Shown one piece after another: positions 904-17,033 of a DNA stretch of 17,752 bases; position 1 is the stretch's first letter; each line of letters starts with the position of its first letter. Below the pieces are notes generated by a model. The model saw only the letters and a list, made by a program, of their open reading frames with translations. It made no database searches and was not told the DNA's origin. The stretch is from NCBI GenBank assembly GCA_030064795.1, contig JASJEI010000232.1, positions 1-17,752 on the forward strand, read 5' to 3'. The position numbers and the translations under genes are program-made. The stretch comes from Pleurocapsa sp. MO_226.B13 (GTDB lineage: Bacteria; Cyanobacteriota; Cyanobacteriia; Cyanobacteriales; Xenococcaceae).

Positions 904-922
904 AGAGTATCTGGAAACCAAT

Positions 923-940: not shown

Positions 941-942
941 AA

Positions 943-2171: not shown

Positions 2172-2197
2172 ATTATGTACAGCAATACGTACATAAT
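2172..2197. promoter_or_regulatory. YefM-YoeB-type autoregulatory operator
   Basis: A perfect 9-base inverted repeat, ATTATGTAC (2172-2180) and GTACATAAT (2189-2197), is separated by 8 bases. It contains the hexamer TGTACA (2176-2181) and a second, one-mismatch hexamer CGTACA (2188-2193) whose centres are 12 bases apart. Published work on yefM-yoeB operators describes paired palindromes with TGTACA cores spaced 12 bases centre to centre. The site ends three bases before the antitoxin ATG, so bound antitoxin should block transcription. The match also argues that the upstream in-frame TTG is not the start. Confidence 0.75.
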
Positions 2198-2200
2198 TCT

Positions 2201-2515: not shown

Positions 2516-2804
2516 AAATGAGCTATTACAGCCTGTTGTTATCCATCGCGTTCCTGGTTTTGGTTCTCAATTTAAAGAGGATTTAGGTTGGTGGTTTAAA
2601 CAAGATCCCAAGAAAGCAGCCAAGATTTTAGATATGGTGACAGCAGTGATGCAAGATCCATTTAAGGGAATTGGCAAACCCGAACCTCTCAAATATATGG
2701 ATGCCAATCTTTGGTCGAGGAGAATCGATCTAGAACATCGATTTATTTATAAAGTTGGCAAAAGTCAAATAGACTTTTTAGCTTGTAGGTTTCATTACGA
2801 ATAA
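2481..2804 (+). CDS. yoeB: Toxin, Txe/YoeB-family ribosome-dependent mRNA endonuclease
   Basis: This 107-residue protein matches the YoeB/Txe toxins that cut mRNA in the ribosomal A site. The conserved core runs from FKEDLGWWFKQDPKKAAKI through DPFKGIGKPEPLK to WSRRIDLEHRFIYKV and the C-terminal ACRFHYE. By alignment by eye with E. coli YoeB, the catalytic residues E46, R65, H83 and Y84 correspond to E68, R87, H105 and Y106 here, so the toxin looks active. It carries an extra Lys-rich N-terminus of about 20 residues (MGKRKKQSKKNKNELL) beyond E. coli YoeB. No later ATG or GTG occurs before the core, so the extension cannot be removed by choosing another start. An AGGA-like ribosome site lies just before 2481, inside the antitoxin gene. 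Confidence 0.92.
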   Translation: MGKRKKQSKKNKNELLQPVVIHRVPGFGSQFKEDLGWWFKQDPKKAAKILDMVTAVMQDPFKGIGKPEPLKYMDANLWSRRIDLEHRFIYKVGKSQIDFLACRFHYE

Positions 2805-2810
2805 AAATAG

Positions 2811-2853
2811 AAAGCGATAAGCCAAGGCGCATTGCTAGGCGATCGCCTGTAGG
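2811..2853 (+). repeat. Short interspersed repeat, copy 1
   Basis: The pattern AAGCGATAAGCC, then GGCGCATTGCTAGGC and CTGTAGG is shared, with small gaps and substitutions, with 3771-3814 in the same orientation. The two copies bracket the toxin remnant and the structured RNA. This copy has absorbed a HIP1 octamer. Confidence 0.55.
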
Positions 2854-2863
2854 AGAGCAAAAA

Positions 2864-2947
2864 TTAACACCTCAAATTAACATTTTCCATATTGTTAAAC
2901 GAGAAGTATTGGTTGACAAAGTAAATTTCTCCTCTTCCGATCGTCAT
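2864..2947 (-). pseudogene. Remnant of a MazF/PemK-type toxin
   Basis: An ATG at 2947, two bases after the stop of the antitoxin gene, opens a 27-codon frame beginning MTIGRGEIYFVN. The segment RGEIYFVN is the conserved first beta-strand of MazF/PemK RNases, which normally continues with an N-P-(x)-G-x-E-Q-x-G-x-R-P motif. Here the family resemblance ends after residue 12, the sequence becomes QYFSFNNMEN, and TAA follows at 2864. About 100 residues of toxin are missing. The position directly behind an antitoxin of the matching type supports the identification. It cannot encode an active RNase. Confidence 0.7.
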
Positions 2948-2949
2948 GT

Positions 2950-3183
2950 CTATGTCAAGCCATCTATTTCAGTAATCGAAAATTCTCGATCGATATCTTT
3001 TATTTCAGCTTGAATTTCCCGATCTTGAGCCATTTTTTTCAATTGTGTATCCCAATCTGCGTTTTTAGCTCGTGTATTTTCTTTTGCTCTGTTTTTGGCA
3101 GATAGCAAAAAGTTTAAAACTTCTTTAACGAGAAGATCTGGAGCTTGTTCTATTTCTTTAATGAGTTGCTCTTTTTCATTCAT
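2950..3183 (-). CDS. Orphan antitoxin of a MazF-type toxin (DUF2281-like)
   Basis: The 77-residue product from ATG 3183 begins MNEKEQLIKEIEQAPDLL and ends EFSITEIDGLT. That beginning (helical, DUF2281-like) and the acidic EF-x-x-TEIDGL end are familiar from cyanobacterial antitoxins encoded just before PemK/MazF toxins. The frame stays open upstream to 3285, but the added 34 codons cross a hairpin and a palindromic repeat and look non-coding. A weak AGAAAAG precedes the chosen ATG. The toxin that should follow is reduced to a stub two bases downstream, so this antitoxin may persist only as a relic or to counter a related toxin elsewhere. Confidence 0.7.
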   Translation of the reverse strand: MNEKEQLIKEIEQAPDLLVKEVLNFLLSAKNRAKENTRAKNADWDTQLKKMAQDREIQAEIKDIDREFSITEIDGLT

Positions 3184-3224
3184 CTTTTCTTCGCGAAGGA
3201 GACTCTCGCTTTCAGCGACGAGAC

Positions 3225-3265
3225 GTGCCGTATAAACATCTGGGGTTTCCCCAGATGACAGGCAC
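3225..3265. repeat. Strong nested hairpin upstream of the structured RNA
   Basis: The stem CATCTGGGG (3237-3245) and CCCCAGATG (3249-3257) pairs perfectly over a TTT loop. It is enclosed by GTGCC (3225-3229) and GGCAC (3261-3265). On the minus strand it falls in the leader of the orphan antitoxin; on the plus strand it lies about 60 bases before the RNA start. It may be the left-end hairpin of an IS605-type element or a terminator protecting the antitoxin from upstream reading. Confidence 0.6.
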
Positions 3266-3307
3266 TCAGGAATTCGCGCCTCCAATTATGTTTGTGTAGT
3301 TGAAATG

Positions 3308-3316
3308 TGGTATTAT
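3308..3316 (+). promoter_or_regulatory. Extended -10 promoter for the structured RNA
   Basis: TGG followed by TATTAT (3308-3316) is an extended -10 element. A start about seven bases later would begin the transcript at GGTCGTTGACC near 3323. No good -35 hexamer is visible, which is acceptable for extended -10 promoters. This start is inferred. Confidence 0.4.
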
Positions 3317-3322
3317 GCTTTT

Positions 3323-3657
3323 GGTCGTTGACCCACTCAGACAACGGGGACAGACAGCCTAACAGTCGAAGTTCGCGATTCCCGCGACGGCGCAGAAAAG
3401 TTGGCAGACTGAGATAAGCTGACAGGGCAATGGATTTGCACAACCCTGAAGGACGCAAACTAAATAAGTATTTTGTTCGGATACCTTTCCGTACCGCTGG
3501 GCTAGCGGAATCGGGACTCTGTAATGGGTCGAAGGTCTGTGGACGTACCAATGTCGGGGGCATAAGTTTAACTTGTGTCTAGATACGTGCGGGTGAAACA
3601 GAAAAGCCTAATCGTAAGGTTAGGAATCCCGCGTCTCCGACGCTGGGAGGATGTCAA
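3323..3657 (+). ncRNA. Structured non-coding RNA, HEARO/omega-RNA-like candidate
   Basis: About 330 bases with no credible reading frame show dense pairing potential. An 8-bp long-range stem (3328-3335 with 3525-3532) closes a 190-base domain. Inside it are CTCAG/CTGAG (3336-3340 with 3409-3413), TCGCG/CGCGA (3373-3377 with 3383-3387), a CAGGG/CCCTG hairpin (3423-3427 with 3444-3448) and CCGCT/AGCGG (3494-3498 with 3504-3508). Downstream are CCTAA/TTAGG (3607-3611 with 3620-3624) and the 9-bp right-end stem (3627-3648). Tracts such as CAACGGGGACA and AAGTTGGCAGACTGAGA look like conserved RNA sequence and recall HEARO RNAs, the guide RNAs of IscB elements; that resemblance is from memory only. 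The alternative is a TnpB-type right-end RNA, whose guide would begin at 3658. No IscB or TnpB gene is in the window, so a partner protein would have to act in trans. Confidence 0.5.
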
Positions 3658-3770
3658 GAAATCACTAAATCACAAGTAATATTATTCATAAGTTCGACTT
3701 GAATTCTAAATTACGCATATACTGTCTAGCTATGATGAGATTACAAGATGGGTTTAATTGTATAACCTTT

Positions 3771-3814
3771 AAGCGGTAAGCCTAGGGCATTGCTTCGCTA
3801 GGCAACTGTAGATG
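3771..3814 (+). repeat. Short interspersed repeat, copy 2
   Basis: The pattern AAGCGGTAAGCC, GGGCATTGC, GCTAGGC, CTGTAG is the direct-oriented partner of 2811-2853. It contains its own inverted repeat, GCCTAG/CTAGGC, so it can fold into a small hairpin. The flanks 3658-3770 and 3815-3892 hold no gene. A 10-base inverted repeat TGAGCAAAAT/ATTTTGCTCA (3828-3837 with 3874-3883) lies just beyond the murF stop and may help end that transcript. Confidence 0.5.
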
Positions 3815-3892
3815 AATAAAAGTAAAGTGAGCAAAATTATCCCTCAGCTAAGTTATTTTATTGACACTTTGAGATTTTGCTCATCCTACCAA

Positions 3893-5254
3893 CTAACTGT
3901 TTCCTAATTGAGCAACCAATTCTGCTACTACTTTATTCAAACCCACAGAATTAGAAGCCTTGCACAAAATTCGATCGCCTGGCTGGATAACTTGTTTCAA
4001 TCTATTAATTAAAGTGTCGCGATCGCTAAAACATTCGCTGTTAATTCCTGCTGCACCATTGGCAATTTCCCGTGTAGCATCTTCATCGGCTAAGACTAAT
4101 AATAGATCTATATCTAATTCTTGGGCTTTTTCCCCTACTTGGCGATGCAGTTGGGCTGAATATTCTCCTAATTCTTTCATCGTGCCTAAAACGGCAATAT
4201 GGCGTTTACCAGGAGTATCTTTGAGCATTTGTAGCGCGGCCAGCATTGACTCTAAACCCGCGTTGTAGGTTTCGTCAAGAATAGTTAGATCGTCGGCTAG
4301 ATCGTAACGACGCGATCGCCCTTTTGGTAATTCTACATTCAACCCAGATTTTAGAGTAGTCAGGTCGATATCTAACCACCGTGCGGTTGCTATTGCTGCT
4401 AAGTAGTTACTGGCGTTATGTTCTCCTGGTAGAGGTAACGGTAAGCGGTATCCTAAAACTTCTATTACATCCCCGTCAATTTCTCCTTGGATATCTCCCC
4501 CCGTCAAACCATAGGTAATAGTTTTACCCTGCCAAACTTTTTTTGCCGTCTCCATTAACAAAGGGTTATCGTAATTTAAAATCGCCACGCTAGTTTCGGG
4601 CATTTGTGCCAACAGTTCGCATTTAGCTTGGGCGATCGCTTTTCTCGAACCCAAACGTCCTATATGGGCTGTCCCTACGTTAGTTATAATTCCGATAGTC
4701 GGACGAGCAATATCCGTAAGTAAGGCAATTTCTCCCGCGCCTCGCATTGCCATTTCAACTACTGCGTAATCGTGTTCTGAGTTAATCTGAAGCAAAGTTT
4801 TAGGTACGCCAATTTCATTATTGAAGTTAGCCTCTGTTTTCAGAACTTCTCCCTGAGTACCTAATACCGCTGCCACTAATTCTTTAGTACTAGTTTTGCC
4901 TACCGATCCAGTGATGCTAATGACAGGAATATTGCTTAGGCGATCGCGCCACCAGCGAGCGATTTGTTGATAGGCTTGTAGCGTATCGGCAACCACGAAT
5001 TGAGGTATAGCTTGGGTTTCTAACTGACGGGAAACAACTACTGCGATCGCGCCTTTATCGATCGCAAGATCGACAAAATCATGTCCGTCAAAATTTTCTC
5101 CCACCAAAGCAATAAAAATCTCTCCAGGTTCGATCGTGCGAGTATCTGTAGTAATACCTAATACAGATATATTCAGATCCAGCTCGCTAACCCGAATATC
5201 CGAATCAGTTTTAATGATTTCACTTAATTGAGACAGAGAAAAATAGTTAGTCAT
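3893..5254 (-). CDS. murF: UDP-N-acetylmuramoyl-tripeptide--D-alanyl-D-alanine ligase MurF
   Basis: MurF adds the D-Ala-D-Ala dipeptide to the UDP-MurNAc-tripeptide, the last cytoplasmic step in making the peptidoglycan nucleotide precursor. At 453 residues it is full length. The N-terminal substrate-binding domain includes ITTDTRTIEPGEIFIAL (34-50). The central ATPase domain carries the P-loop TGSVGKTSTKEL (115-126), EANFNNEIGVP (141-151), TNVGTAHIGR with the conserved His197, and a lysine at 211 that is the probable carbamylated residue. GEHNASNYLAA (277-287) and DETYNA (327-332) are the Mur-ligase signatures leading into the C-terminal domain, which ends with KASNSVGL (432-439). ATG at 5254 matches the family start. 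It is transcribed alone, divergent from the next gene across 229 AT-rich bases. Confidence 0.97.
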   Translation of the reverse strand: MTNYFSLSQLSEIIKTDSDIRVSELDLNISVLGITTDTRTIEPGEIFIALVGENFDGHDFVDLAIDKGAIAVVVSRQLETQAIPQFVVADTLQAYQQIARWWRDRLSNIPVISITGSVGKTSTKELVAAVLGTQGEVLKTEANFNNEIGVPKTLLQINSEHDYAVVEMAMRGAGEIALLTDIARPTIGIITNVGTAHIGRLGSRKAIAQAKCELLAQMPETSVAILNYDNPLLMETAKKVWQGKTITYGLTGGDIQGEIDGDVIEVLGYRLPLPLPGEHNASNYLAAIATARWLDIDLTTLKSGLNVELPKGRSRRYDLADDLTILDETYNAGLESMLAALQMLKDTPGKRHIAVLGTMKELGEYSAQLHRQVGEKAQELDIDLLLVLADEDATREIANGAAGINSECFSDRDTLINRLKQVIQPGDRILCKASNSVGLNKVVAELVAQLGNS

Positions 5255-5483
5255 GGAGTTAGTTGCAGAGAAAAATACTTAAAAATGCTTTTGCCCAAAA
5301 TTCATGATAAATACTTTGAGTAGATATACCAAGAGCCGTTATTTAAAATCTTGACTAAAAATTTATACCATTAATTAAAACTAAACCTTAATATTTAAAA
5401 ATAGACTGTAGTTTTATAACTATAAATTTTAAAATATCATTTTTATTCAATCTCTCTTTAAAATCTGGGGGAGGATCGCGATT

Positions 5484-6797
5484 GTGGTCAGACAAAAATA
5501 TAAAACCGCTACCAATTCAACCAAAGAGCAACAACAGCAAATTTACGATCATTTGTTGTATTCTGTCAAAACAGAATCCCCAATTGAAGTATTAGATAGA
5601 TTTCACCACCTATTTATTAAAGGAACGGGATATAAAGACAATCGTATTCGCATTGCTTTAGAAAATATTGTTGAATCGAATAATGCTGAATTAGAATTTC
5701 CTTTGTTTTTTAATCGTTGCTGCCATATTATAGTCAATCGTTGGCAGATGCAGCCAAACTACAAGGTTGAAATTATCGAACTAGCTTCATTATTAGAACG
5801 AGCCTTACCCCCAGGAGGTACTGTTTCTCGTACCGCTCGTAAATTGAGACAGCTAATCAAAGATTTTTATAACACCGAATATTATGTCAAGCTTCAGCGA
5901 CTGGCACGCATCATAGATGGTAGCCTAGAGCCAGAGGCTCGTCGCAGTCAGCGCATCGAAATCGTCAGTAATTCTGTCGGAGATTTAATCCAACGCTATC
6001 CATATTTACATCAACACTGCTTACTCACCGAAGCTAGTACCGAAGAATTTCAGCAAACCGTAGAAACCATTCAAGCAGGAATTCAATCAAGCTACGAATT
6101 AAACCTATCCCAATACATAACCTATCGCGTTCGTCTGGCTCGGATGGTAAAAAAATATAAAGCAGCCAACAAAACCAAAATTCCTAAACGATTAATCCAA
6201 AAAGTAGAGAATCCCACTCTATTGAGCGATCGCGAGTTAGATAAAGCTCTGCGTCATTATATGGGCAAAGTAGAGCAAGATTACAGTTATTACGATCTAG
6301 CGCAAAAGTTCTTAACTCACACCACGCAAACTCGTTCTTATAAGGAGTTCAAAGCCGATTTATACGAATATATTGTTTCTGGAGTAGATTCTCGCTTTGG
6401 CGAGCGTCGCTTCAATCATAAGTTACACAATTGTCTCAAAAACACGATGACAGATTTTGAAAACCGCGAGTTGGATGAATTTTTAACCATGCGTACCTAC
6501 TGTCAGTTATTTAAATTTTTGGTAGTAGATGGTAGGGGAAATTTTAATCACGATCGCTATTTAGATCTAATTAGCTATTTAGGCGAAGTTAGAACTATCG
6601 GTTTGTTGCTTAAGTTAGTCTTGCTATGTGGTAAGGTCAAGCCTTATTTGGAACAACGATTTTCAATTCTTTTTTCCCATTACGAAGCTGTCTCTGAAGA
6701 TCGAGCTCCCTGGTTAGTTAAGTCTCTAGAAAATTTACAGGTAGCCTTTAGCGTCCATTTTGGCGAGGCTGACTTTTCTCTAATTCAAATTATTTAA
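5484..6797 (+). CDS. Conserved-looking helical protein of unknown function
   Basis: I do not recognise a family. The 437-residue product looks soluble and mostly helical, with no signal peptide or membrane span. Notable stretches are LPPGGTVSRTARKLRQLIKDFYNTEYYVKLQRLARIID split across residues about 110-145, a basic region (RLARMVKKYKAANKTKIPKR, about 220-240), and an aromatic-rich C-terminal half (ELDEFLTMRTYCQLFKFLVVD). The start is GTG at 5484, supported by a very strong ribosome site, GGGGGAGGA, eight bases upstream. That leader and the undamaged length argue for a real, well translated gene. It is preceded by divergent murF and followed by 375 bases without a gene. A scaffold or nucleic-acid-binding role would be a guess from the basic helices. 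Confidence 0.8.
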   Translation: MVRQKYKTATNSTKEQQQQIYDHLLYSVKTESPIEVLDRFHHLFIKGTGYKDNRIRIALENIVESNNAELEFPLFFNRCCHIIVNRWQMQPNYKVEIIELASLLERALPPGGTVSRTARKLRQLIKDFYNTEYYVKLQRLARIIDGSLEPEARRSQRIEIVSNSVGDLIQRYPYLHQHCLLTEASTEEFQQTVETIQAGIQSSYELNLSQYITYRVRLARMVKKYKAANKTKIPKRLIQKVENPTLLSDRELDKALRHYMGKVEQDYSYYDLAQKFLTHTTQTRSYKEFKADLYEYIVSGVDSRFGERRFNHKLHNCLKNTMTDFENRELDEFLTMRTYCQLFKFLVVDGRGNFNHDRYLDLISYLGEVRTIGLLLKLVLLCGKVKPYLEQRFSILFSHYEAVSEDRAPWLVKSLENLQVAFSVHFGEADFSLIQII

Positions 6798-7172
6798 TTA
6801 ATTATTTAAAATACTCTTGACTTTAGATGAGATGCGATCGCTACCCCTGGCCAGAAGCAAATTAGTACTTAAATCCTAAAATTTAGGAACTTTGAAAGAC
6901 GCTCGCGTTTATAGAACATTGAAAATTGCATAAAATTGCAACGCAGGTAAACACAGATCAGGTATTTTTCTGTTGCACTATTTTAAGCGTGTCAGTTCAC
7001 TACACAATATTTAATATTTGTTTAATAAATATGCTTCTAAATCGTGACAATTATTACGCAATCTTTAAGTTTTAATTTTTCCAACAAAACTGAATATTTT
7101 TGCCAAGTCATACATATTAATATTTTAGTAATCTGTACCTACATAGATAATTATTTTGAGGAACGAGTTTGA
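6798..7172. other. AT-rich leader region before the redox operon
   Basis: No coding frame is supported. A small inverted repeat TCCTAAA/TTTAGGA (6874-6888) may end the upstream transcript. The last 150 bases are very AT-rich and must hold the promoter of the iron-sulfur operon, but I could not fix a -35/-10 pair. GAGGA (7158-7162) is a good ribosome site for the ATG at 7173. No clear NtcA site (GTA-N8-TAC) was seen. Confidence 0.5.
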
Positions 7173-9692
7173 ATGCTTAATAAAGTTGCCGAACAGAAAG
7201 CTCATGCCATTCGGTATGTTTTAGTAGTGGGTTGGCTACTCTTGATTCTGTCTTTATTTTTCGATCCGATATCTGCTAACTTAACCGATCCTAACAGCAA
7301 TTTTTTTAGTCCTTTAAAGGATAATCTAATTAATCTAGCCCAAGACCCCGAAACTTGCATTCGAGTTCAGGATAAATGCTTACCAGGAACACCTTATCAA
7401 GCTGGTGCGAGAATTTTCTGGGGATTTGTAGTGCCTGCTGGTTTTGGTATTGTTTTTGTTTTGGGACACGAATTTTGGCGCAGAATCTGCCCTCTATATT
7501 TTTTATCACAGATACCCCGTGCCTTGGGTATGAAACCTAAAAAACAAATTAGTCAAAATAAATGGTTAGTTGAAAATCATTTATATTTACAGTTCGCCCT
7601 CTTCTTTTTAGGATTAAATATGCGGATTTTGTTTGTTAATTCCGCTCGTCCTGTCTTAGGCGTGTTTTTACTCTTAACTATTGCTTCGGCGATCGCCATG
7701 AATCTGTTCTATGGTGGTCGTAGTTGGTGTCATTATGTCTGTCCCTTCGGTCTGGTTCAGATGGTGTTGACTGGCCCGCGAGGACTGTTGGGTAGTGAGG
7801 CGCAAAAACAGCCACCCCGAACTATTACTCAGTCGATGTGTCGTACTTTTGACAAGGAAACTAACTCGGAGAAAATCACCTGCATTAGCTGTAAGTCTCC
7901 CTGCATGGATATCGACTCAGAAAAGGCATATTGGGAACAGTTGACTAAATCAGGCAGAAAATTGGTGCAATATGGCTATTTGGGGCTAGTTTGTGGTTAT
8001 TTTATTTATTATTTTTTATATTCGGGTAATTTTAATTATTATTTCTCTGGTGCTTGGACTCACGAAGCGGGTCAGGTAAGCAAAATTTTTAATCCTGGTT
8101 TTTATATTGCACGACAGGTAATTCCGATTCCTAAGTTAATTGCAACTCCTCTTACTTTAGGAGTGATAGTCGCTATTTTCTATTTTGGGATTTCCAGAAT
8201 AGAAAAAATCTACGGTACTTATCTCAAAAAACAAGACTCCAATCTCGATCGCAAAATCGTTTTGCATCGGGTGTTTACCATTGTCACCTTTTTAGCGGTC
8301 AATGCTTTTTATGTCTACGGTGGTCGTCCAGAAATTCTGCGCTTTCCTTTTATCGTGCAGATGATTTTTAATGCTTTAGTAGTTTTAATCAGTACGCTTT
8401 GGCTGGTTCGTACTTGGGGACGTACTAACAGTCAATACAAACAAGAAAGTATTGCCGATAAACTGCGTCGTCAACTTAAAAAGCTCAAAATCGATTTTAC
8501 TAGCGTTCTTGGTGGTCGTACCTTAGACGATCTCAAAGCCGACGAACTAGATTTACTAGCCCAGGTTGTTCCTCAAGTTACCAAACAAGATCGAATCCAG
8601 GTTTATAAAGGCGTTCTCGAAGAATCTTTACAAGCAGGTAGTGTAGAAACTACTAATAGTTTGAAATCATTGCAATCAGTACGTCAGCGTTTAGAAGTTT
8701 CGCAAGAAGAACATTACGCTATCTTGACCGAGTTGGGGATCGAAGATCCTACCCTACTCAAATCTCCCCAAGAATACGCACAAGAAGATCGATTGAGAAT
8801 TGAAAGCTACAAAGAAGCGATCGCGGGTATCCTGCAAGAATTAGTCGATAGTGGTATGCCCGTTCACGAAGCAGTGGAAGCTAGAACTAAACAAATTAGT
8901 AACTTAAAAAATGAGTACAACATCAACAAGCAAGAACATCTTCAGGTACTAAGCGGACTATTTGATTCGCTACGCCCCAAAGCGGAGAAATTGCTGGCAC
9001 TATTACAGACAGAGAATTCTCGCTTTCAGGCGATCGGCAACTTTAGACCCCACAGTAATACTCCTGTATTCCTGTTGTTGCGTAAGCTCCTACTGGCAAA
9101 ACAGCAACTAATCGTTCGACCTCTATTAGCAGTATTAGAGTTACTAAATGACGAACCAGATGCGGTACAGCTAGCCCGACGGACGGGAATTGCTGCTACC
9201 GAGGCGATCGCTCAAGTCCTAGCAGCAGAACCTCAATGGCAACAGCGTTTGAATCCCAATCTGTTAAGAGAATTAATGCCAGGTAGCGTTAATAGTACCC
9301 AAGCAACCATGGTCAAAGACGGCGGAACGAGAACTAGATTGCACAGTGAGTTTCTCTCCGCACAGGCGGTAGACGATGCACTTTTAGAACTATTACAAGA
9401 ACCAAATCCGATTACCGAATCAGCTAGTCTTTATGCCTTAACGCAACTAAACCGCGATCGGGGAATGGCTCTAGCTCAACAAATACTACAAAAACCGTTG
9501 CAAAATGATTTAGTCAAAGATACAGCTGCTAGCATTTTGGGGCAATCTTCTCAAACTTCAGTAATCGAACAGTTATTGAGTATGTCAGGACAACCTAATT
9601 TTCAGGTCATGACACCAGATCGATTATTGGCTTTGGTAACTCAAGCACAACAAAATAATCAGGAGATCACCGAAATCGCGCCACCTCGATAA
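7173..9692 (+). CDS. Membrane polyferredoxin-like 4Fe-4S protein with long cytosolic tail
   Basis: This 839-residue protein has a NapH/NosR-like electron-transfer core. Hydrophobic segments at about 14-31, 79-99, 137-155, 160-180, 265-285, 323-341, 363-381 and 391-412 give eight spans with both ends in the cytosol. Cluster ligands face the cytosol: RRICPLYF (C106), SWCHYVCPFG (C186, C190), and a group C223, C237, C240, C244 in CISCKSPC that could hold one [4Fe-4S]. Two cysteines, C62 and C69, lie on the opposite side and could form a disulfide. The tail (420-839) is soluble and helical; it repeats a motif, SVRQRLEVSQEEHYAILTEL (501-520) and ISNLKNEYNINKQEHLQVLS (575-594), and ends in HEAT-like helices. 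The next gene encodes a flavin/[2Fe-2S] reductase, the likely electron donor. The final acceptor is unknown. Confidence 0.85.
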   Translation: MLNKVAEQKAHAIRYVLVVGWLLLILSLFFDPISANLTDPNSNFFSPLKDNLINLAQDPETCIRVQDKCLPGTPYQAGARIFWGFVVPAGFGIVFVLGHEFWRRICPLYFLSQIPRALGMKPKKQISQNKWLVENHLYLQFALFFLGLNMRILFVNSARPVLGVFLLLTIASAIAMNLFYGGRSWCHYVCPFGLVQMVLTGPRGLLGSEAQKQPPRTITQSMCRTFDKETNSEKITCISCKSPCMDIDSEKAYWEQLTKSGRKLVQYGYLGLVCGYFIYYFLYSGNFNYYFSGAWTHEAGQVSKIFNPGFYIARQVIPIPKLIATPLTLGVIVAIFYFGISRIEKIYGTYLKKQDSNLDRKIVLHRVFTIVTFLAVNAFYVYGGRPEILRFPFIVQMIFNALVVLISTLWLVRTWGRTNSQYKQESIADKLRRQLKKLKIDFTSVLGGRTLDDLKADELDLLAQVVPQVTKQDRIQVYKGVLEESLQAGSVETTNSLKSLQSVRQRLEVSQEEHYAILTELGIEDPTLLKSPQEYAQEDRLRIESYKEAIAGILQELVDSGMPVHEAVEARTKQISNLKNEYNINKQEHLQVLSGLFDSLRPKAEKLLALLQTENSRFQAIGNFRPHSNTPVFLLLRKLLLAKQQLIVRPLLAVLELLNDEPDAVQLARRTGIAATEAIAQVLAAEPQWQQRLNPNLLRELMPGSVNSTQATMVKDGGTRTRLHSEFLSAQAVDDALLELLQEPNPITESASLYALTQLNRDRGMALAQQILQKPLQNDLVKDTAASILGQSSQTSVIEQLLSMSGQPNFQVMTPDRLLALVTQAQQNNQEITEIAPPR

Positions 9693-9778
9693 TCTTAGGT
9701 GTGACATTGTTTTGAGGGAAATATAAATTATTAAGTCAGTCAAGAAAGCGACAAAATATATTTTATAAGGTGACAAAA

Positions 9779-11398
9779 ATGCCAGAAATTATAATTATTG
9801 ATACTAGAAAACCACAGGAAACCAAATCAATGCTCCTCGCTCCAGAAAAACAACTCAATCAAGAATGTCTTGTGGGTAGAGACGCTCGCTGTTGCATTGT
9901 TTTAGATGATTCTTTGGCTAGTCGTACCCACGGCAAAATTGCCTTTAGAAACGGTAATTATTATTATTCCGATCTGGGGAGTAGAAATGGCTCGAAAATT
10001 AACAATGTCGATACCCAACTCAATCAAGAATACCCCTTAAAACCCTCTGATACCATCGCTATAGGAAATCATCTACTGTGGGTCAAAGCGATCGCGGGGG
10101 TAGAAACTCCTACTGCACCCCAAACTCTTACCCCCGCTCAGTATATGCCACTGGCGACTATCGATCCTGCTAGTTTAGAAACCTGGACTCAGGGAACAAA
10201 ACAGGTTAAGTGCGTTCAGATTATTAATGAAACTACCGATGTCAAGACCTTTACCTTTGTTGCCGAGCCACCAGTTAAATTTAACTATCAACCAGGACAG
10301 TTTGTTACTCTCAATTTAAATATCGACGGCAAAAGCGTCAAACGTTCCTATTCTATTTCTTCCACGCCTTCTCGCCCTCATAGTCTAGAAATTACCGTTA
10401 AGCGAGTCCCCTCACCGGCGGATGAACCGACTGCGCCCAAGGGGCTGGTGAGCAACTGGTTACACGATAACCTGAAAGTTGGCAGCCAAATCGAGATGAA
10501 CGCACCTATGGGCAAATTTACCAATTTTGCTCATCCTTCAGCTAAAGTATTTTTTATCTCGGCAGGTAGCGGAATTACGCCGATGATGTCTATGTCTCGG
10601 TGGATCTGCGACACGGTATCTAATGTAGACATTATTTTCCTTCATAGCGCGCGCAGCCCTGAAGATATTATTTTCCGTCAAGAGTTAGAAATGATCACGG
10701 CTCGTTATCCTAACTTTAAGCTAGCAATTACTGTAACTCGCCCCGTCCCCGGTCAACCTTGGTATGGCTATACAGGCAGAATTAACGAAATAATTTTACC
10801 CGCGATCGCACCTGACTACAAAGACCGAACTGTATATGTCTGTGGCCCAAATCCATTTATGGAAGCCACCAAGGAGTTGCTGCAAAAGATCGACTTTCCC
10901 ATGGAAAATTACTATGAAGAAAGTTTTGGCGGAGCGAAAAAGAAGAAAAAGAAACCCGCGCCTACTCAAGTCCCCGTTGGCGATCGCGCATCTATCGTCC
11001 AGCCTGCACCAGCACCAGCACTAGTTACAGCCCCCGCACCAGCACCCGCCCTAATTAAGCCACCGACGGTATCCCCTACCTCAATAGTAGATTTTGGCTC
11101 TACACCCGCACCCGCCCCTGCACCCGCCCCTACACCCGCCCCTACTTCCTCTAGTCCGATAATTGTCTTAGCCAAATCTGGTCAAGAAATTACTTGTGAT
11201 GGTGAAGAACCTATTCTAGATGTTGCCGAAGCTGAAGGGGCAGATTTACCCTTTGGTTGTCGTATGGGAGCTTGTGGTGCTTGTAAAGTTAGGAAAGTAG
11301 AAGGTGAAGTAATTTATGAAGATGATGTTGATTGCGAGGATGGTTTTATTTACACCTGTGTCGCTAAACCAGTAGGTAAAGTTGTGATTGAAGCCTAA
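9779..11398 (+). CDS. FHA - FNR-type flavoreductase - [2Fe-2S] ferredoxin fusion
   Basis: Three domains are fused. Counting from the preferred ATG at 9779, an FHA domain (about 25-105) has the pThr-binding pattern VGRD, SRTH and GSRNG. A ferredoxin-reductase module (about 135-385) has the FAD motif RSYSISS (190-196), the NAD(P)H motif SAGSGITPM (261-269) and CGPNPFME (355-362). A Lys tract and a Pro/Ala-rich linker (387-460) lead to a plant-type ferredoxin whose ligands are C494, C499, C502 and C527 (C-x4-C-x2-C-x24-C). The domain order reductase-then-ferredoxin resembles HCP reductase and Rieske-oxygenase reductases. It should move electrons from NAD(P)H via FAD to [2Fe-2S], probably to the membrane Fe-S protein encoded 86 bases upstream. 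The frame opens at GTG 9770, but AAGG (9767-9770) fits the ATG nine bases later. Confidence 0.93.
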   Translation: MPEIIIIDTRKPQETKSMLLAPEKQLNQECLVGRDARCCIVLDDSLASRTHGKIAFRNGNYYYSDLGSRNGSKINNVDTQLNQEYPLKPSDTIAIGNHLLWVKAIAGVETPTAPQTLTPAQYMPLATIDPASLETWTQGTKQVKCVQIINETTDVKTFTFVAEPPVKFNYQPGQFVTLNLNIDGKSVKRSYSISSTPSRPHSLEITVKRVPSPADEPTAPKGLVSNWLHDNLKVGSQIEMNAPMGKFTNFAHPSAKVFFISAGSGITPMMSMSRWICDTVSNVDIIFLHSARSPEDIIFRQELEMITARYPNFKLAITVTRPVPGQPWYGYTGRINEIILPAIAPDYKDRTVYVCGPNPFMEATKELLQKIDFPMENYYEESFGGAKKKKKKPAPTQVPVGDRASIVQPAPAPALVTAPAPAPALIKPPTVSPTSIVDFGSTPAPAPAPAPTPAPTSSSPIIVLAKSGQEITCDGEEPILDVAEAEGADLPFGCRMGACGACKVRKVEGEVIYEDDVDCEDGFIYTCVAKPVGKVVIEA

Positions 11399-11425
11399 TT
11401 TAATTTAAGGAATAAGGAAATAAGG

Positions 11426-11443
11426 AAAAGCGATCGCTTTTTT
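11426..11443 (+). terminator. HIP1-centred palindrome with T-run
   Basis: AAAAGCGATCGCTTTT (11426-11441) is a 16-base palindrome built on a HIP1 octamer, extended by two further Ts, 28 bases after the redox operon stop. A G+C-centred stem ending in a T-run fits an intrinsic terminator, although the loop must open the HIP1 core. Confidence 0.45.
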
Positions 11444-11491
11444 ACTAATAACCAACTGATAAAATATTGTTAGCTATTCATTGGAAAAACA

Positions 11492-11626
11492 ATGGTTTCA
11501 TCTACTGGCAAGCTAACCGTCAAAGAGTTCTTTAATCTTCCTGAAGGCGATCGCCCTTACGAGCTTATTCCTGTTTATTACATAGAATATTTATCGCTTG
11601 AACCGTCAAACCTTGTAGAGACGTAA
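11492..11626 (+). pseudogene. N-terminal stub of an Uma2-family (DUF820) nuclease-like gene
   Basis: A 44-codon frame from ATG 11492 begins MVSSTGKLTVKEFFNLPEGD and continues RPYELI. That is the usual start of cyanobacterial Uma2 proteins (LT-x-EEF-x-x-LPE ... YELI-x-GE), PD-(D/E)XK-like proteins of about 190 residues. After YELI the family sequence stops (PVYYIEYLSLE) and TAA at 11624-11626 lies within a palindromic repeat. The rest of the gene is absent, so the stub cannot be a functional nuclease. Confidence 0.65.
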
Positions 11627-11642
11627 TATATTACGTCTCTAC
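11615..11642. repeat. 28-bp perfect palindrome, interspersed cyanobacterial repeat
   Basis: GTAGAGACGTAATA is followed directly by its reverse complement. The GTAGAGACGTA...TACGTCTCTAC type is a familiar cyanobacterial intergenic repeat, and a relative sits at 11936-11982. It supplies the stop codons of two gene stubs, one on each strand (TAA 11624-11626 plus; TAG 11639-11641 minus). Confidence 0.8.
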
Positions 11643-11758
11643 ATACTGTCTTCATCAAGACGAAATACTTCTAGTCGAATAACTCGACATTCATTAGTTT
11701 TTTTAGCTGAATAATTGAAGTAATACCATTTCTCATTAATAGCTAGATAGATCGTATT
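11639..11758 (-). pseudogene. C-terminal stub of an unidentified protein
   Basis: Reading the minus strand from about 11758 gives a 39-codon tail that looks genuinely coding: NTIYLAINEKWYYF, then ECRVIRLEVFRLDEDSM, ending at TAG (11639-11641). Upstream the frame stays open through a poly-T run and a repeat of the AGGTTGGGTTTCGTACCTCA type (complement near 11773-11800), which has evidently replaced the rest of the gene. I do not recognise the family. The remainder of the spacer to 11935 has palindromic repeats and two HIP1 octamers and no other gene. Confidence 0.4.
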
Positions 11759-11935
11759 AAAAAAATGTAGCTTGAGTTGAGGTACGAAACCCAACCTACA
11801 TAAGCTTTTTTTGGGTTGCGCGCTTAGTTTAACCCCTACTACGAAGTCTCTTGTTACTTTTGAGAATTGATATAATCTGAAGCTGAAAAGCGATCGCCCA
11901 AATTAGTAAGCGATCGCTCTTGATAACAATCATAA

Positions 11936-11982
11936 AGACGTAGCCCTAAAGGACTCGCTTCGCATCGCATGCTACGTCTCTA
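11936..11982. repeat. Inverted repeat overlapping the permease stop, possible terminator
   Basis: AGACGTAGC (11936-11944) pairs with GCTACGTCT (11971-11979) around a 26-base loop. It belongs to the same GTAGAGACGTAGC repeat family as 11615-11642. Its outer end, CTCTAC, supplies the TAG stop of the permease gene on the minus strand, so the repeat abuts or has trimmed that gene, and the hairpin may end the operon transcript. Confidence 0.55.
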
Positions 11983-13698
11983 CTGACGACTATTAATTTC
12001 GGTTTTTTCAAATAACATTTTGGTTTCCGATCTTCCTGCTTGTCTTAATTTTCTGGTCATCTGGAAGCCAATTAAAGAGATCGCCACACATTGTCCTAAT
12101 ATTGCTAACATTACAGCGCAGCTAGTCGCATATTCGGTAGCAACGGTGGGAACAAAACTAAATAGCCAAAGTTGAGGTGCATTCGATGGGGCTAGTTCGG
12201 CAAAGCCCAAACACAAAGGCGGAACGACAATCATCGCCATGACGCTCGCTGCTGAATAGATAGCCCGTTTGCGAGACTTCATTGTTAAGACTAATTGGGC
12301 TACTAGAGCATAGAATACAATACTAAGTCCACTCAGAATAAATCCCCAGAAAATGTATTGTTCGTCTCGCTCTAAAATCAAAAATATAGAGGGAGTAATA
12401 TAGGTAACTGCGATCGCCATATTAATTGCTACCGCTACCGTCGAAGGACTGTTTTCGCCAAAGAGCGATTCTTGCCAAAGCACTTTGGCGTTTTTTGCTT
12501 GATGGCGATATCGCGCCCAGTCGTACAAAGTTTGACGATGGGGACTAAGAGCAGCGATTAAGAATAATCCCAAGATACACAGACAAAATTGTAGGAGAAC
12601 AAAATTTTCTGTAGCTAAGAAAGAGCGGGTATTTTGTAGAGTAAAGCCGAGAGCAATTACGGTAAACCAGCCAGTTATCCAATAACTTTGAGTTTTACTG
12701 ATTAGAGTACTTTCAGGATTGTGAAAACGGCGTTTGAGCAACGTCCAACACCAGTATGTCCAGAGACTAAAGTTAAATAAGACTAAGCCGATCCCAAAAC
12801 TCGCTTTTGTCCATAAAGCCTGTCCGTAAAATAATAATTCCCCTAATTCTTTGGCTGGTAAGAAGTCAACCTTGTTATAGGGTAAATAAGTAGTATCAAT
12901 CAAATAGGAAAGAACAATACCAGGATGAAACAAAAACAACCAGTCCCAAAGAGCATTAGTAATTAAATGACTGTTATGAAATAAAGCCGTAGTCAAAGGG
13001 AATAGCATCAGGCAGATTGCTCCACTAGCTAACCAAGGTTTAAAGCCCGATAAACCCAAATTCATCAAACTCCAGAGCAATGCCAAGCTATAGACAAAAG
13101 CACAGCTAGCAACTATTACTACATCAAAAGCAATAATCAGAGTTAAGGGAATACACGCCCCCAAACCAGAAATAATCTGTAGAGGTAAGATTAATAAAAT
13201 TGCTACATACAACAGTATTGGTACGCCTAAGATTTTTCCTAGCAAAATAGTGCTAGCAGATTGAGGCGTAAGACGAATAAAGTTGAGCGTACCTCGGTCT
13301 TCTTCTTTAACCGTATCGGCAATCAACATATATGTGCCGACAATCAACAGAGCAAAAATACTAACAATACTCAAGGCGATAAACAAATCAAGCCACAATA
13401 GCTGCCAATTAATCACCCAGTTACCTAACATATCTTTGGTATAAGCAAGGCTATTACGATAGCCATCACCCATACCATAACGTCCATATTGAGCTTTTAG
13501 TAGTCCTTCGGGGTTTGGATCTGGCAATTCACCCAATAAAGAAATCCCGATAACAAATTGAGTAATAACAGAAATAGCAGCAGCTATGACTACGTTTCTA
13601 GTTTTTAGTTTGCCCTTAATCTCTCGAAATAATTGAGGGTTCGAGTCTAAAAACTTTTCCCATAATGAGCTTTGAAACAGTTGGATATTTTGTTTCAT
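11980..13698 (-). CDS. ABC-2-type transporter permease
   Basis: This 572-residue integral membrane protein is the partner of the ATPase encoded 58 bases upstream. Numerous hydrophobic segments are visible, including NVVIAAAISVITQFVIGISL (35-54), LFIALSIVSIFALLIVGTYM (about 105-125) and several between 160 and 260, with more in the C-terminal half. The cytosolic loop KEEDRGTLNFIRLTPQSAST followed by ILLGKILG is the ABC-2/NatB-like coupling pattern (ER-x-x-GTL...TP...ILLGK) that contacts the ATPase. Export is the usual direction for this type; the substrate is not evident. A long polar loop (about 55-105, NPEGLLKAQYGRYGMGDGYR) separates the first two spans. The last codons overlap an interspersed palindrome, so the natural C-terminus may differ by a few residues. 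Confidence 0.85.
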   Translation of the reverse strand: MKQNIQLFQSSLWEKFLDSNPQLFREIKGKLKTRNVVIAAAISVITQFVIGISLLGELPDPNPEGLLKAQYGRYGMGDGYRNSLAYTKDMLGNWVINWQLLWLDLFIALSIVSIFALLIVGTYMLIADTVKEEDRGTLNFIRLTPQSASTILLGKILGVPILLYVAILLILPLQIISGLGACIPLTLIIAFDVVIVASCAFVYSLALLWSLMNLGLSGFKPWLASGAICLMLFPLTTALFHNSHLITNALWDWLFLFHPGIVLSYLIDTTYLPYNKVDFLPAKELGELLFYGQALWTKASFGIGLVLFNFSLWTYWCWTLLKRRFHNPESTLISKTQSYWITGWFTVIALGFTLQNTRSFLATENFVLLQFCLCILGLFLIAALSPHRQTLYDWARYRHQAKNAKVLWQESLFGENSPSTVAVAINMAIAVTYITPSIFLILERDEQYIFWGFILSGLSIVFYALVAQLVLTMKSRKRAIYSAASVMAMIVVPPLCLGFAELAPSNAPQLWLFSFVPTVATEYATSCAVMLAILGQCVAISLIGFQMTRKLRQAGRSETKMLFEKTEINSRQ

Positions 13699-13756
13699 GA
13701 TTCTAAATTTATATAATTCACCGAGCAGTTTGTCATTTTCGTGCCACTTAATCGAT

Positions 13757-14704
13757 CTAAGAAGCTTGTTGATGTCCTAATTTTAGAAATATAGTTTCGA
13801 GGTCTTCTTGGGTACAGTGAAATTCTGTAAGCGGAATCTCAGCGAGAATAAGCGATCGCAACAGATCCGCACAGTCGCTCTCTCCTCCTGTAAAATCGAT
13901 CTTAAGACGATTGCTTTTGGGTATTACCTCCCAAGTTTCTACAAATGAGTTTTGTCTGAGTGCTTGTTGCAATATCTCCATCTTACCCAAAGTGCCAAGA
14001 ATAATTTGTTGACGAGACAATCTTTGGTATAGTTCTGTTAAAGAAGCACTTTCTACTAAGAAGCCTAATTCCATTATCCCGACGGAGGTACAGAGTTCGG
14101 CTAAGTCACTCAGAACGTGGGAAGAAATCAAAATTGTCATTCCTGCTTCTTGTAAAACTTTAATTATTTGGCGAAATTGTTGTCTGGCTAAAGGATCTAA
14201 TCCCGACACGGGTTCGTCTAAGAGTAATAATATTGGTTCGTGAATAATGGTTCTAGCTAAACTAAGACGCTGCTTCATCCCCCGCGAAAGAGTAGAAATC
14301 AGACTTTGACGTTTATTTTCTAATTGAACTAGTTCTAAGACTTCAAATAGCCGACGACGGCGCAGAGGTGGCTTTAAATTATATAGGCGAGCAAAATATT
14401 CTAAATAGTCCCAGACAGTAAGATCGTCGTAGAGAGGAAAGTCATCGGGAAGATAACCCAAGCGTTTTTTTAAGATTGGATTGGAGTCATCTCTAAGTAA
14501 GCGATCGCCGTTGAGATAAATTTCTCCCTTAGTCGGTTCTTCTGCTGCTGCTAACATTCTAATTAAAGTAGTTTTGCCCGCACCATTGGGTCCAATTAAA
14601 CCGTAAACCTCTCCACTTTTAATTCTCAGATCGATATCATTGACGGCGATATGCCCTTCAAATCTTTTGGTTAAGCCATAGGTGGCGATCGCCCAATCAT
14701 TCAT
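13757..14704 (-). CDS. ABC transporter ATP-binding protein
   Basis: This 315-residue nucleotide-binding subunit energises the neighbouring ABC-2-type permease. Walker A is GPNGAGKT (38-45), Walker B is ILLLLDEP (158-165), and the switch His is H196 in ISSHVL. The signature is LSRGM (139-143) rather than LSGGQ; this variant occurs in CcmA/NatA/DrrA-type exporters. At the Q-loop position the sequence is GYLPDDFPLYDDLTV (83-97), with Asp where Gln is typical. The last 100 residues form an accessory domain that ends DLETIFLKLG, as in this subfamily. The order on the minus strand is AllA-like gene, 42 bases, ATPase, 58 bases, permease, suggesting one transcript. Confidence 0.93.
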   Translation of the reverse strand: MNDWAIATYGLTKRFEGHIAVNDIDLRIKSGEVYGLIGPNGAGKTTLIRMLAAAEEPTKGEIYLNGDRLLRDDSNPILKKRLGYLPDDFPLYDDLTVWDYLEYFARLYNLKPPLRRRRLFEVLELVQLENKRQSLISTLSRGMKQRLSLARTIIHEPILLLLDEPVSGLDPLARQQFRQIIKVLQEAGMTILISSHVLSDLAELCTSVGIMELGFLVESASLTELYQRLSRQQIILGTLGKMEILQQALRQNSFVETWEVIPKSNRLKIDFTGGESDCADLLRSLILAEIPLTEFHCTQEDLETIFLKLGHQQAS

Positions 14705-14746
14705 AGTCTTTTTGGGTTTTTAGTTCGGAATTATTTGAGTTTTTAA

Positions 14747-15241
14747 TCAATCTACGATTTCAAATTCTAGGTTTTGTTTGGTAGCAAAATTGTGAGTGAA
14801 ATGATCTACTACATTGGTATCGCTCAGTTCTAAATTATAAAAATCTACTATTTGATGGTCGAAATACGGCCCTGCGTGCCAAGTCCCTACCTCCAGTTTA
14901 ATAAAACAATCTCCTGGAATCCGAAACGCTTTCATGCTATTGAGATCGGGTTCAATCTCTTTTCCAGGAGGACACACTACCATAAACCAATCTTTACCAT
15001 TTAAAGAACCCAAACATTGGGTACACAAATTATGACGGGTAATCTGATGAAAAGTTCTACCTCGATGCTGCAAACGCATAATATAAAAGCGAGGAATACC
15101 GTTTTGTAGATTTAGTACTGCATCGGTTTCATCGAAAACTTTACCATCAGGGGTAGCAGTAATTAACTGCCCATAGGGTGCAAAATTTGACTCGGTAATG
15201 GGAATGGCGGGTATTTGTTGGCGAGAGAGTAGTTTGGGCAT
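14747..15241 (-). CDS. allA: Ureidoglycolate lyase (AllA) family protein
   Basis: This 164-residue cupin-like protein matches the AllA family, which splits ureidoglycolate to glyoxylate and urea late in purine-ring/allantoin breakdown. Visible family features are the N-terminal PITESNFAPYGQLI (14-27), FHQITRHN with His66 and His70, the strand DWFMVVCPPG (84-93), and GTWHAGP (119-125), the conserved active-site strand. The length is normal for the family. It carries several cysteines (C73, C76, C90, C112), and the segment TQCLGS stands where most AllA proteins have a S-Q-x-F-x-P-like stretch, so the exact substrate is less sure. It is probably the first gene of a transcript with the two ABC transporter genes, and is divergent from leuD across 157 bases. 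Confidence 0.82.
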   Translation of the reverse strand: MPKLLSRQQIPAIPITESNFAPYGQLITATPDGKVFDETDAVLNLQNGIPRFYIMRLQHRGRTFHQITRHNLCTQCLGSLNGKDWFMVVCPPGKEIEPDLNSMKAFRIPGDCFIKLEVGTWHAGPYFDHQIVDFYNLELSDTNVVDHFTHNFATKQNLEFEIVD

Positions 15242-15398
15242 TTGAGAGATCTCGATTAATTTAGTTGTTTCTTTGCTATTTGTTATTATTAATTACTTTT
15301 TATATAATTTTACTGACTTAAGGAAAGACGCTTGCCAAATCGAAACCTCTAAACCGTCCTTCGGTAAGATTGCACCTACAGTAACTAGTAATTAAAAC

Positions 15399-15995
15399 AT
15401 GAGTAAAGTTGAAACAAGATCGGGAAAAGCGATCGCCGTTAAGGGCGACGATATCGATACAGATCGGATTATTCCTGCCCGTTTTTTACGTTGTGTTACC
15501 TTTGACGGTTTGGGAGAACACGCCTTTGCCGACGATCGCGCTCAAGCTGATGGCAAACATCCTTTCGATCTAGAAAAATATCAGGGTGCGAGTATCCTAG
15601 TTGTAAACAACAACTTTGGCTGTGGTTCGTCTCGCGAACACGCTCCCCAGGCGTTGTCTAAATGGGGAATCAAAGCGATCGTCGGTCAGAGTTTTGCCGA
15701 GATCTTTTTTGGTAACTGCGTGGCAATTGGCGTCCCCTGTGTCATCGCTTCCCCAGAAGCAGTAAAGCAACTCCAGGAGGCGATCGAGCAAAACCCAGAG
15801 GTAAGTTTAACTGTCGATCTCGAAAAGATGGCAGTCAAAAATGATACCCAGACAATACCAGTCAAGATGAACGAGGGTTCGCGCCAAATGTTTCTCAACG
15901 GTACTTGGGACAACTGCGGACAGCTAATCGCCGAGCCTCAAAAAATTAAAGCTACTGCTACCAAACTACCTTACGTCAACTGGCAAACTGTTTGA
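15399..15995 (+). CDS. leuD: 3-isopropylmalate dehydratase small subunit LeuD
   Basis: LeuD is the small, substrate-recognising subunit of isopropylmalate isomerase, which converts 2-isopropylmalate to 3-isopropylmalate in leucine synthesis together with LeuC, the [4Fe-4S] subunit. The 198-residue length is typical. The swivel-domain signatures DDIDTDRIIPARFL (17-30) and NNNFGCGSSREHAPQAL (70-86) are both complete, and ending near GTWDNCGQL is usual for the family. ATG at 15399 fits the family N-terminus, although no strong ribosome site is seen. LeuC is not in this window, so the two subunits are encoded apart here. Confidence 0.95.
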   Translation: MSKVETRSGKAIAVKGDDIDTDRIIPARFLRCVTFDGLGEHAFADDRAQADGKHPFDLEKYQGASILVVNNNFGCGSSREHAPQALSKWGIKAIVGQSFAEIFFGNCVAIGVPCVIASPEAVKQLQEAIEQNPEVSLTVDLEKMAVKNDTQTIPVKMNEGSRQMFLNGTWDNCGQLIAEPQKIKATATKLPYVNWQTV

Positions 15996-16098
15996 AGTAC
16001 CCCAATCTGCTTCGCTAGCCAAATAGTATCTTTGGCATGAGTTTGGCGATTTGAATCTCATTGTTTAAAATTGCCAAAACCTGTGTATAAAGAAGATT

Positions 16099-16695: not shown

Positions 16696-16802
16696 GATCG
16701 AGAAGATCGAGGCAATAAATAATAAAGGCGAGCGCAAAATAGATATTTAAAGTTCATAAAAAATATCTCAAACTGAAATCTTGCACCTGAATAAATAACC
16801 GC

Positions 16803-16991: not shown

Positions 16992-17033
16992 CAATAAACC
17001 CGAACTCAAGTTAAGAAATAATGACCCAATATT

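Follow-up and report, generated by a model that had tools for sequence, protein, structure and literature searches.

The locus described here raises the question of what is done by two adjoining genes, called A and B below, in the cyanobacterium Pleurocapsa sp. MO_226.B13. The window, meaning the whole stretch of DNA that was analysed, is 17,752 nucleotides (nt) in length and covers positions 1 to 17,752 of the forward strand of contig JASJEI010000232.1 (assembly GCA_030064795.1). Gene A (7173..9692, + strand) encodes a membrane iron-sulphur protein of 839 amino acids, identified by its open reading frame (ORF), a Fer4_5 domain and an AlphaFold model. Gene B (9779..11398, + strand) encodes a reductase with FHA, FAD, NAD and [2Fe-2S] domains, identified by its ORF and Pfam. 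A preliminary description of this DNA had reported several cysteine groups in A, a gap of 86 bases, and a single chain of FHA, reductase and ferredoxin domains in B; this layout was confirmed by ORFs, Pfam and alignments. Judged by its relatives, the A-B pair may be a new kind of controlled oxidant-producing system, similar in function to an NADPH oxidase (NOX). No description of the pair was found among the matches listed from the literature searched, which consisted mostly of freely readable papers.

Protein searches at E ≤ 0.001 returned at least 1795 relatives of A and at least 1167 relatives of B. Neighbourhood counts use the best 80 of 398 confirmed A loci in GTDB genomes, with the window added where the total is 81. 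The alignment of A contains 81 proteins (the window and the 80 loci) and that of B contains 21 rows. The counted rows include cases where one gene is split over several rows, and part of the A copies are incomplete.

Structure of Gene B

Gene B begins with an ATG at position 9779 and has an alternative GTG start at 9770. All of its domains are on the + strand. The FHA domain identified by Pfam (9869..10066) spans residues 34-99, counted from the GTG. The phosphothreonine-reader motif of FHA domains consists of GR, S and H, with a further G ahead of the final strand, and the 21-row alignment shows it in B, where G36, R37, S51, H54 and G74 are invariant. Residue 73 is Asn in the window and varies elsewhere in these rows (A, D, G, S and others). 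The FAD_binding_6 domain (10220..10519) contains an RSYSISS motif, and the NAD_binding_1 domain (10553..10873) contains GSGITP and CGP motifs; both were placed by Pfam and alignment. A Pro/Ala-rich linker, seen in the sequence (10928..11173), leads to a plant-type [2Fe-2S] ferredoxin domain (Fer2, 11174..11371) in which C497, C502, C505 and C530 are invariant (21/21 rows). The set of a ferredoxin-type reductase of the FNR kind, namely FAD_binding_6, NAD_binding_1 and Fer2 with four Cys, is thus complete.

The best NCBIfam match of B is GbcB, with an E value of 2.2e-109 and a score of 365.7 bits, which does not reach the equivalog cut-off of 500. Reductases of the GbcB/PaaE/NqrF type share with B the FAD and NAD domains joined to a [2Fe-2S] domain. 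B differs from them in its N-terminal FHA domain, its membrane-protein partner and the sub-cut-off GbcB score. No forward terminator-like site was found in the 86-bp gap that the ORF boundaries leave between A and B (9693..9778).

Structure of Gene A

The AlphaFold model of A has a mean predicted local distance difference test (pLDDT) value of 80.9, with eight long helices inside residues 7-415 and an all-helical tail after them. The model and the distribution of lysine plus arginine (K+R) define a membrane core of residues 1-415 (7173..8417, + strand). Its helices span residues 7-27, 78-97, 130-155, 159-180, 262-284, 321-354, 360-382 and 393-415. The K+R fraction is 0.19 (residues 98-129), 0.11 (181-261) and 0.21 (416-455) in the presumed inner stretches, and 0.06 (28-77) and 0.03 (285-320) in the outer loops. 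The short loop 383-392 breaks this pattern with a fraction of 0.16.

Seven cysteines of A never vary where they are covered by the alignment (C106, C186, C190, C223, C237, C240 and C244). C106 lies on the presumed cytosolic side in an RRICP motif (7488..7490, + strand; 78/78 rows), and position 102, before C106-P, is Trp in 78/78 rows. The only CX3CP motif of A is C186-x3-C190-P (7728..7742, + strand; 81/81 rows). It falls within Fer4_5, the sole Pfam domain recognised in A (residues 165-201; 25.6 bits against a Pfam cut-off of 22). C223, C237, C240 and C244 (7839..7904, + strand; each 81/81 rows) are likely 4Fe-4S ligands, around which the model is poor (residues 237-243 have pLDDT below 50). 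These four cysteines would suit one full [4Fe-4S] site, and a second cluster could be held by C106, C186, C190 and another ligand, perhaps H99. A further pair, C62 and C69 (7356..7379, + strand), is presumed to be on the outer side, with Cys at each position in 69 of about 77 rows. The core histidines kept in at least 90% of rows are H11 (74/77), H99 (78/78) and H365 (80/81) only; there is one per helix, near the cytosolic helix ends. H297, in an outer loop, is His in 67/81 rows.

The C-terminal all-helical region of A (8418..9689, + strand) is HEAT-like at residues 728-790 by the model and structure search, and is missing or swapped for other domains in some relatives. A Foldseek search with the A model gave no match at E ≤ 0.001. 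The VIA structure search aligned mainly residues 600-791, with HEAT-like repeats and other helical proteins, and the 50 matches listed from it include no NapH, NosR or CcoG chain.

NapH, NosR, RdhC (PceC) and CcoG, like A, have Fer4_5 with CX3CP and further presumed cytosolic cysteines. Unlike them, A has one CX3CP motif instead of two, lacks a pair of CX2CX2CX3CP ferredoxin motifs, and is partnered by an FHA-bearing NAD(P)H reductase in a different gene context. At E ≤ 0.001, A matches zero NCBIfam families and has no Pfam match to the periplasmic FMN-binding domain that is a feature of NosR and RdhC. A had been called NapH/NosR-like; it has the Fer4_5 domain, while the missing NCBIfam match and the single CX3CP speak against NapH or NosR proper. 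By these sequence features, A is a divergent Fer4_5 protein that fails the defining features of NapH, NosR and RdhC.

Pairing and Fusion of A and B

B-type genes form the largest neighbour cluster of A (51/81 loci). In 50 of these 51 loci, B is at most 6 kb from A and on the same strand; the exception is L024, where B is 7.5 kb from A on the other strand. Whole-genome counts were made in 50 A-bearing genomes, which are a part of the genomes behind the 80 loci, picked for flank length and variety, and include genomes already seen to have oxidant-enzyme neighbours of A. B matches at E ≤ 1e-60 are present in 44 of the 50. The preliminary description had made its proposal depend on A and B staying together, and they do: 48/57 B matches have at least one of the 75 A matches within 5 kb, where a Poisson expectation that ignores kinship and post-hoc family choice is 0.15.

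A phylum sample of 386 genomes was also searched (A at E ≤ 1e-20, B at E ≤ 1e-80), with positions of A and B matched by eye. A is present in 50 genomes and B in 15, and all 15 genomes with B also carry A. B is beside A in 10 of the 15. B thus accompanies A, whereas A does not require B. The pair had been put forward as a unit; its conserved pairing and the fusions described below uphold this, but B is not universal (15 against 50 of 386 genomes).

Among the 120 matches listed, four relatives (P0091, P0092, P0094 and P0095) unite the A core with FAD/NAD/Fer2 as a single polypeptide, and the fusion domains of P0091 and P0094 were upheld by a Pfam rescan. P0320, from a second list of 120 matches, is a further relative bearing FAD/NAD/Fer2. 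The AlphaFold model of the natural fusion P0091 is poor (pLDDT 58.6). Since the pair is conserved and the A core occurs fused to FAD/NAD/Fer2, B is very probably the electron supplier of A. The preliminary description had spoken of a complete wire from NAD(P)H to membrane clusters; such a route would agree with the domain order.

Other A relatives have an FHA and a cyclic-nucleotide (cNMP) domain behind the A core. P0098 and D082_RS16860 are 4Fe-4S proteins of this kind with the same A core, annotated as cyclic nucleotide-binding. They differ from the window's pair in carrying the regulatory domains on A itself. No B was found within the 20 kb examined around D082_RS16860. The recurring theme is an A core, often with NAD(P)H-to-[2Fe-2S] supply, while the control domains move around. 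An A homologue annotated as cyclic nucleotide-binding is present on the Synechocystis PCC 6714 plasmid pSYLB (L116:9001-11826), with no B among the genes shown, which makes it a form lacking B in a genus that serves in laboratory work. On a Rhizobium leguminosarum plasmid (L115:8914-13920), genes for a glycoside hydrolase 15 and a GMC oxidoreductase come after a short A.

Oxidant Enzymes near A in Relatives

In 35 of the 80 loci, superoxide or H2O2 would be consumed or removed by an enzyme encoded within 10 kb of A. The 35 consist of 13 loci with a VCPO-type vanadium haloperoxidase (L046 weak), six with a vanadium bromoperoxidase (VBPO type), four with animal-haem peroxidase and 12 with Cu/Zn superoxide dismutase (SOD). 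The VBPO of L060 matches solved vanadium bromoperoxidases with an E value of 5.4e-116, and a representative Cu/Zn-SOD neighbour has a Pfam E value of 4.5e-26. A lipoprotein-like signal is present at the start of all 12 Cu/Zn-SODs. RTX-like repeats are present in the long animal-haem peroxidases of L029, L076 and L079 (the three inspected) and in the VCPOs of L041 and L049. The peroxidase ORF of L079 shares 4 bases with the start of A.

Matches to these families near A were also counted in the 50 genomes (49 for VCPO_2nd), with expectations of the same kind. Matches within 10 kb of A number 12/34 for VCPO_2nd (expected 0.16) and 11/26 for Cu/Zn-SOD (expected 0.13). For animal-haem peroxidase they number 4/34 long-type rows (E ≤ 1e-70; expected 0.15) and 0/56 shorter or weaker rows, which were counted apart, giving 4/90 in all. 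For VBPO they number 3/34 rows. The control families gave none within 10 kb: Fe/Mn-SOD 0/92, MsrA 0/79 and Ferric_reduct 0/63.

A tree of A with 86 rows, made by a quick method under LG+G4, places the window inside a 38-row clade (Shimodaira-Hasegawa-like approximate likelihood-ratio support 100), 22 rows of which have a peroxidase neighbour. When clusters within 6 kb of A are ranked in this clade, B is first (27 loci, 15 genus labels) and VCPO is second (11 loci, 7 genus labels, 11/11 same strand), followed by kinase, CHAT-CHASE2 and VBPO clusters with six loci each. Outside this clade B again leads, ahead of CHASE2-kinase, then DUF928, then Cu/Zn-SOD (12/12 same strand, 7 labels). L003, at 73% identity to the window, has a VCPO near A. 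The neighbour labels need a minimum of 14 changes on the tree, and the peroxidase type shifts between sister groups, such as animal-haem in L076/L068 beside VCPO in L051/L053. That differently built H2O2-using enzymes swap between sister loci argues for a shared substrate.

Proteobacterial relatives show a similar arrangement. On plasmids of R. etli and A. fabrum, the genes of an A-FHA protein and of an FAD/NAD/Fer2 reductase adjoin a divergently oriented gene whose annotation is cytochrome c peroxidase. The R. etli protein with this annotation is MauG/MbnH-like, below the cut-offs of those models.

Three further arrangements were observed. In Nostocales-type loci (L008-L014, L017, L034 and L065), DUF928, TPR-CHAT, CHASE2 and two-partner-secretion (TPS) genes surround A-B. 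An FAD_binding_4 oxidase-like gene is directly upstream of A in L040 (7796-9499), and related loci have a peroxidase near A. In one genome (G408:C118:180508-183820), a Cu/Zn-SOD match is separated by about 2.4 kb from a VCPO-type match, at a site distant from the listed copy of A.

Kinase Genes near A

Fourteen loci, mostly of Nostocales, encode a protein with a Ser/Thr kinase motif on the strand of A, 2-6 kb further downstream. In both loci scanned (L010 and L065), Pfam identifies it as a CHASE2-type receptor kinase. Two loci have a kinase with a periplasmic-binding-protein domain close behind B, at a distance of 31 bp in L025 and 26 bp in L037. In L111 and L112, both Leptolyngbya boryana plasmids, WD40 kinases end 2 bp before A or overlap its start. 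An EF-hand annotated in the Leptolyngbya A protein (BAY59879) was rejected, as Pfam finds none.

Filamentous cyanobacterial strains carry 40-56 Ser/Thr kinases (PMC2176072). With kinases so numerous, one somewhere near A is weak evidence, and the argument is therefore taken from the same-strand adjacent cases. A kinase near A on the opposite strand in six loci of the window's clade (0/7 same strand) was left out as evidence. Three kinase designs adjoin the pair in separate lineages, which makes phospho-control of the pair plausible. The idea that FHA implies kinase control is thereby strengthened by the adjacent kinases of relatives. The FHA is sometimes located on A, together with a cyclic-nucleotide domain.

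Comparison with NOX and Dual Oxidases

A-B may resemble NOX and dual oxidases (DUOX) in function, with a membrane part supplied by an FAD/NAD module in the cytosol, with domains for regulation, and with peroxidase or SOD partners. A-B differs in having an extra [2Fe-2S] centre and presumed [4Fe-4S] centres, and in having its partner peroxidases as separate proteins. In NOX/FRE proteins, two membrane helices each hold a conserved pair of His that bind haem, and no core helix of A has two conserved His. Ferric_reduct (PF01794) is absent from A at E ≤ 0.001, which speaks against a classical NOX. The A-bearing genomes do contain PF01794 genes (41/50), none of them within 10 kb of A. In animal dual oxidases a peroxidase domain is linked to an NADPH-oxidase domain, and early members of that peroxidase superfamily occur in cyanobacteria (PMC4420034); this provides an analogy, not homology.

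Six of the A-bearing genomes have an Fe/Mn-SOD match about 0.2 kb or less from their strongest match to Ferric_reduct, the NOX/FRE type (G420:C138, G400:C164, G070:C26, G422:C303, G409:C6 and G312:C30). An oxidase of classical appearance is there paired with SOD, which parallels the loci where A-B is found with SOD.

Other ORFs of the Window

A 437-amino-acid ORF upstream of A (5484-6797) has no Pfam or NCBIfam match at E ≤ 0.001. Two short overlapping ORFs at 2162-2804 resemble an antitoxin/toxin pair. An SLH-domain ORF of 198 amino acids (16099-16695) is perhaps truncated; SLH porins are usually longer than this.

Proposed Function and Alternatives

The preliminary description did not include a terminal reaction, and the neighbourhoods point to peroxide or superoxide. 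We propose that A and B form a regulated NAD(P)H-driven module that would pass electrons across the membrane to O2 and so provide superoxide or H2O2 for oxidant-using enzymes, a reading to which we give a little less than an even chance. Electrons would pass from NAD(P)H to FAD, to the [2Fe-2S] centre of B, to the [4Fe-4S] ligands of A, and from there to the outer face and O2. The clusters of A would be reached at the cytosolic face. The electrons could cross by way of a bound quinone, of C62 and C69, or of a haem located close to H11, H99 or H365. On the outer side, the most likely acceptor would be O2, reduced directly or via a bound quinone. Superoxide formed outside would be converted by SOD or by spontaneous dismutation to H2O2 for peroxidases. 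The clients would be vanadium haloperoxidases, animal-haem peroxidases and Cu/Zn-SOD lipoproteins. The FHA domain on B, and the FHA and cNMP domains on A in relatives, may serve gating or recruitment by Ser/Thr kinases or cyclic nucleotides.

Several results weigh against this proposal. All clear Fe-S ligands are presumed to be cytosolic and no helix has two conserved His, which leaves the membrane crossing unexplained. Neither Foldseek nor VIA gave a structural match to the membrane core of A. At the cut-offs used, A occurs without B in 35 of the 50 A-bearing phylum genomes, where it must have another donor or role. No enzyme of the sought types was found in 45/80 loci, some of them on short contigs; these include the loci L001, L002, L004 (a short contig) and L005, which are among the closest to the window, and the window also has none near A. 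Another 30 loci of 3.5-4.8 kb, with little flank, have none of the enzymes. No peroxidase is present among the scanned proteins of the L. boryana loci, where RTX repeats occur in one downstream protein of L112 and, only below cut-off, in one upstream protein of L111. The VCPO of L003 and the VBPOs of L060 and L037 lack GGxGxD repeats, and a simple motif scan found none in the ten remaining VCPO loci either. The haloperoxidases as a class are therefore not called secreted. The oxidant-enzyme families were chosen after being sighted beside A, and rows related by descent inflate all counts. The Cu/Zn-SOD cases are confined to one part of the A tree, and in part of the tree CHAT, CHASE2, DUF928 and TPS genes are neighbours of A with a frequency similar to that of SOD.

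The same neighbourhoods, with A beside enzymes that make or meet oxidants, would also fit a protective reductase, in which A and B send electrons outward to repair or detoxify oxidised envelope components such as quinones, thiols and protein oxidation products. The MsrPQ and CcdA pathways are the model for such outward reduction. The near-invariant outer pair C62/C69 is in keeping with it, and a CcdA/DsbD-type gene is found downstream of A, 41 bp away in L007 (4349-5125, a locus without B) and 1.5 kb away in L006. The L007 arrangement fits a thiol pathway and is a further point against oxidant production. We nevertheless consider this explanation unlikely: MsrA (0/79) and Fe/Mn-SOD (0/92) do not occur near A, no methionine-sulphoxide reductase is among the Pfam-scanned neighbours, and peroxidases consume H2O2 and need a source. 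It is improbable that A and B reduce Fe(III) or Cu(II) at the envelope, for uptake or for the Cu/Zn-SOD and haem enzymes, since vanadium enzymes need neither Fe nor Cu and no metal transporter is among the recurrent neighbour families of the part of the clusters that was Pfam-scanned. A metal reductase would suit the Fer4_5 core of A, as the Fer4_5 protein CcoG is discussed as a metal (cupric) reductase. It would also suit the Cu/Zn-SOD neighbours and the ferric reductase domain NAD_binding_6, which P0091 and the B proteins of L111 and L112 match with scores barely over the cut-off.

NapH- and RdhC-type membrane modules have been proposed to work with quinols (PMC5928378). By this precedent, and given that aromatic and polar residues are conserved in those loops of A that are presumed to be outside, the pair could be a non-pumping NAD(P)H:plastoquinone oxidoreductase, with the oxidant enzymes handling by-products only. 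This appears quite improbable, as it leaves unaccounted for the pairing with haloperoxidases and Cu/Zn-SOD but not Fe/Mn-SOD. A generic redox carrier, whose neighbours reflect inherited gene order or islands, would be consistent with the DUF928, CHAT, CHASE2 and TPS genes also common to Nostocales-type loci, with the post-hoc choice of families and with the window's lack of oxidant-enzyme neighbours. We regard it as very improbable, given that the peroxidase type, side and distance differ between clades and that the enrichment comes from whole-genome counts with control families.

Within the favoured proposal of oxidant production, a more specific form is possible but doubtful. A-B would be a bacterial analogue of NADPH oxidase and dual oxidase, based on Fe-S centres in place of haem, gated by kinases and cyclic nucleotides, and evolved separately from NOX/DUOX. 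It would make extracellular superoxide or H2O2 for co-encoded haloperoxidases, animal-type peroxidases or SOD.

Significance

Extracellular superoxide of bacteria and phytoplankton acts on metals and on cell physiology. As of 2019, the enzyme behind it had been identified in one strain only of marine bacteria, where it is an animal haem peroxidase, according to a paper of that year (PMC6414704). In a 2025 study, DPI, a flavoenzyme inhibitor, lowered extracellular superoxide in 14/16 phytoplankton strains, mostly incompletely, and one Synechococcus strain was insensitive to it (PMC12684733). The A-B pair is a concrete candidate source of extracellular superoxide, though A is present in just 50/386 genomes of the phylum. 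If the proposal is true, part of the extracellular superoxide of A-B-carrying cyanobacteria could be accounted for, cyanobacterial haloperoxidases would have a dedicated peroxide source, and the pair would be a NOX/DUOX-like system built from other parts.

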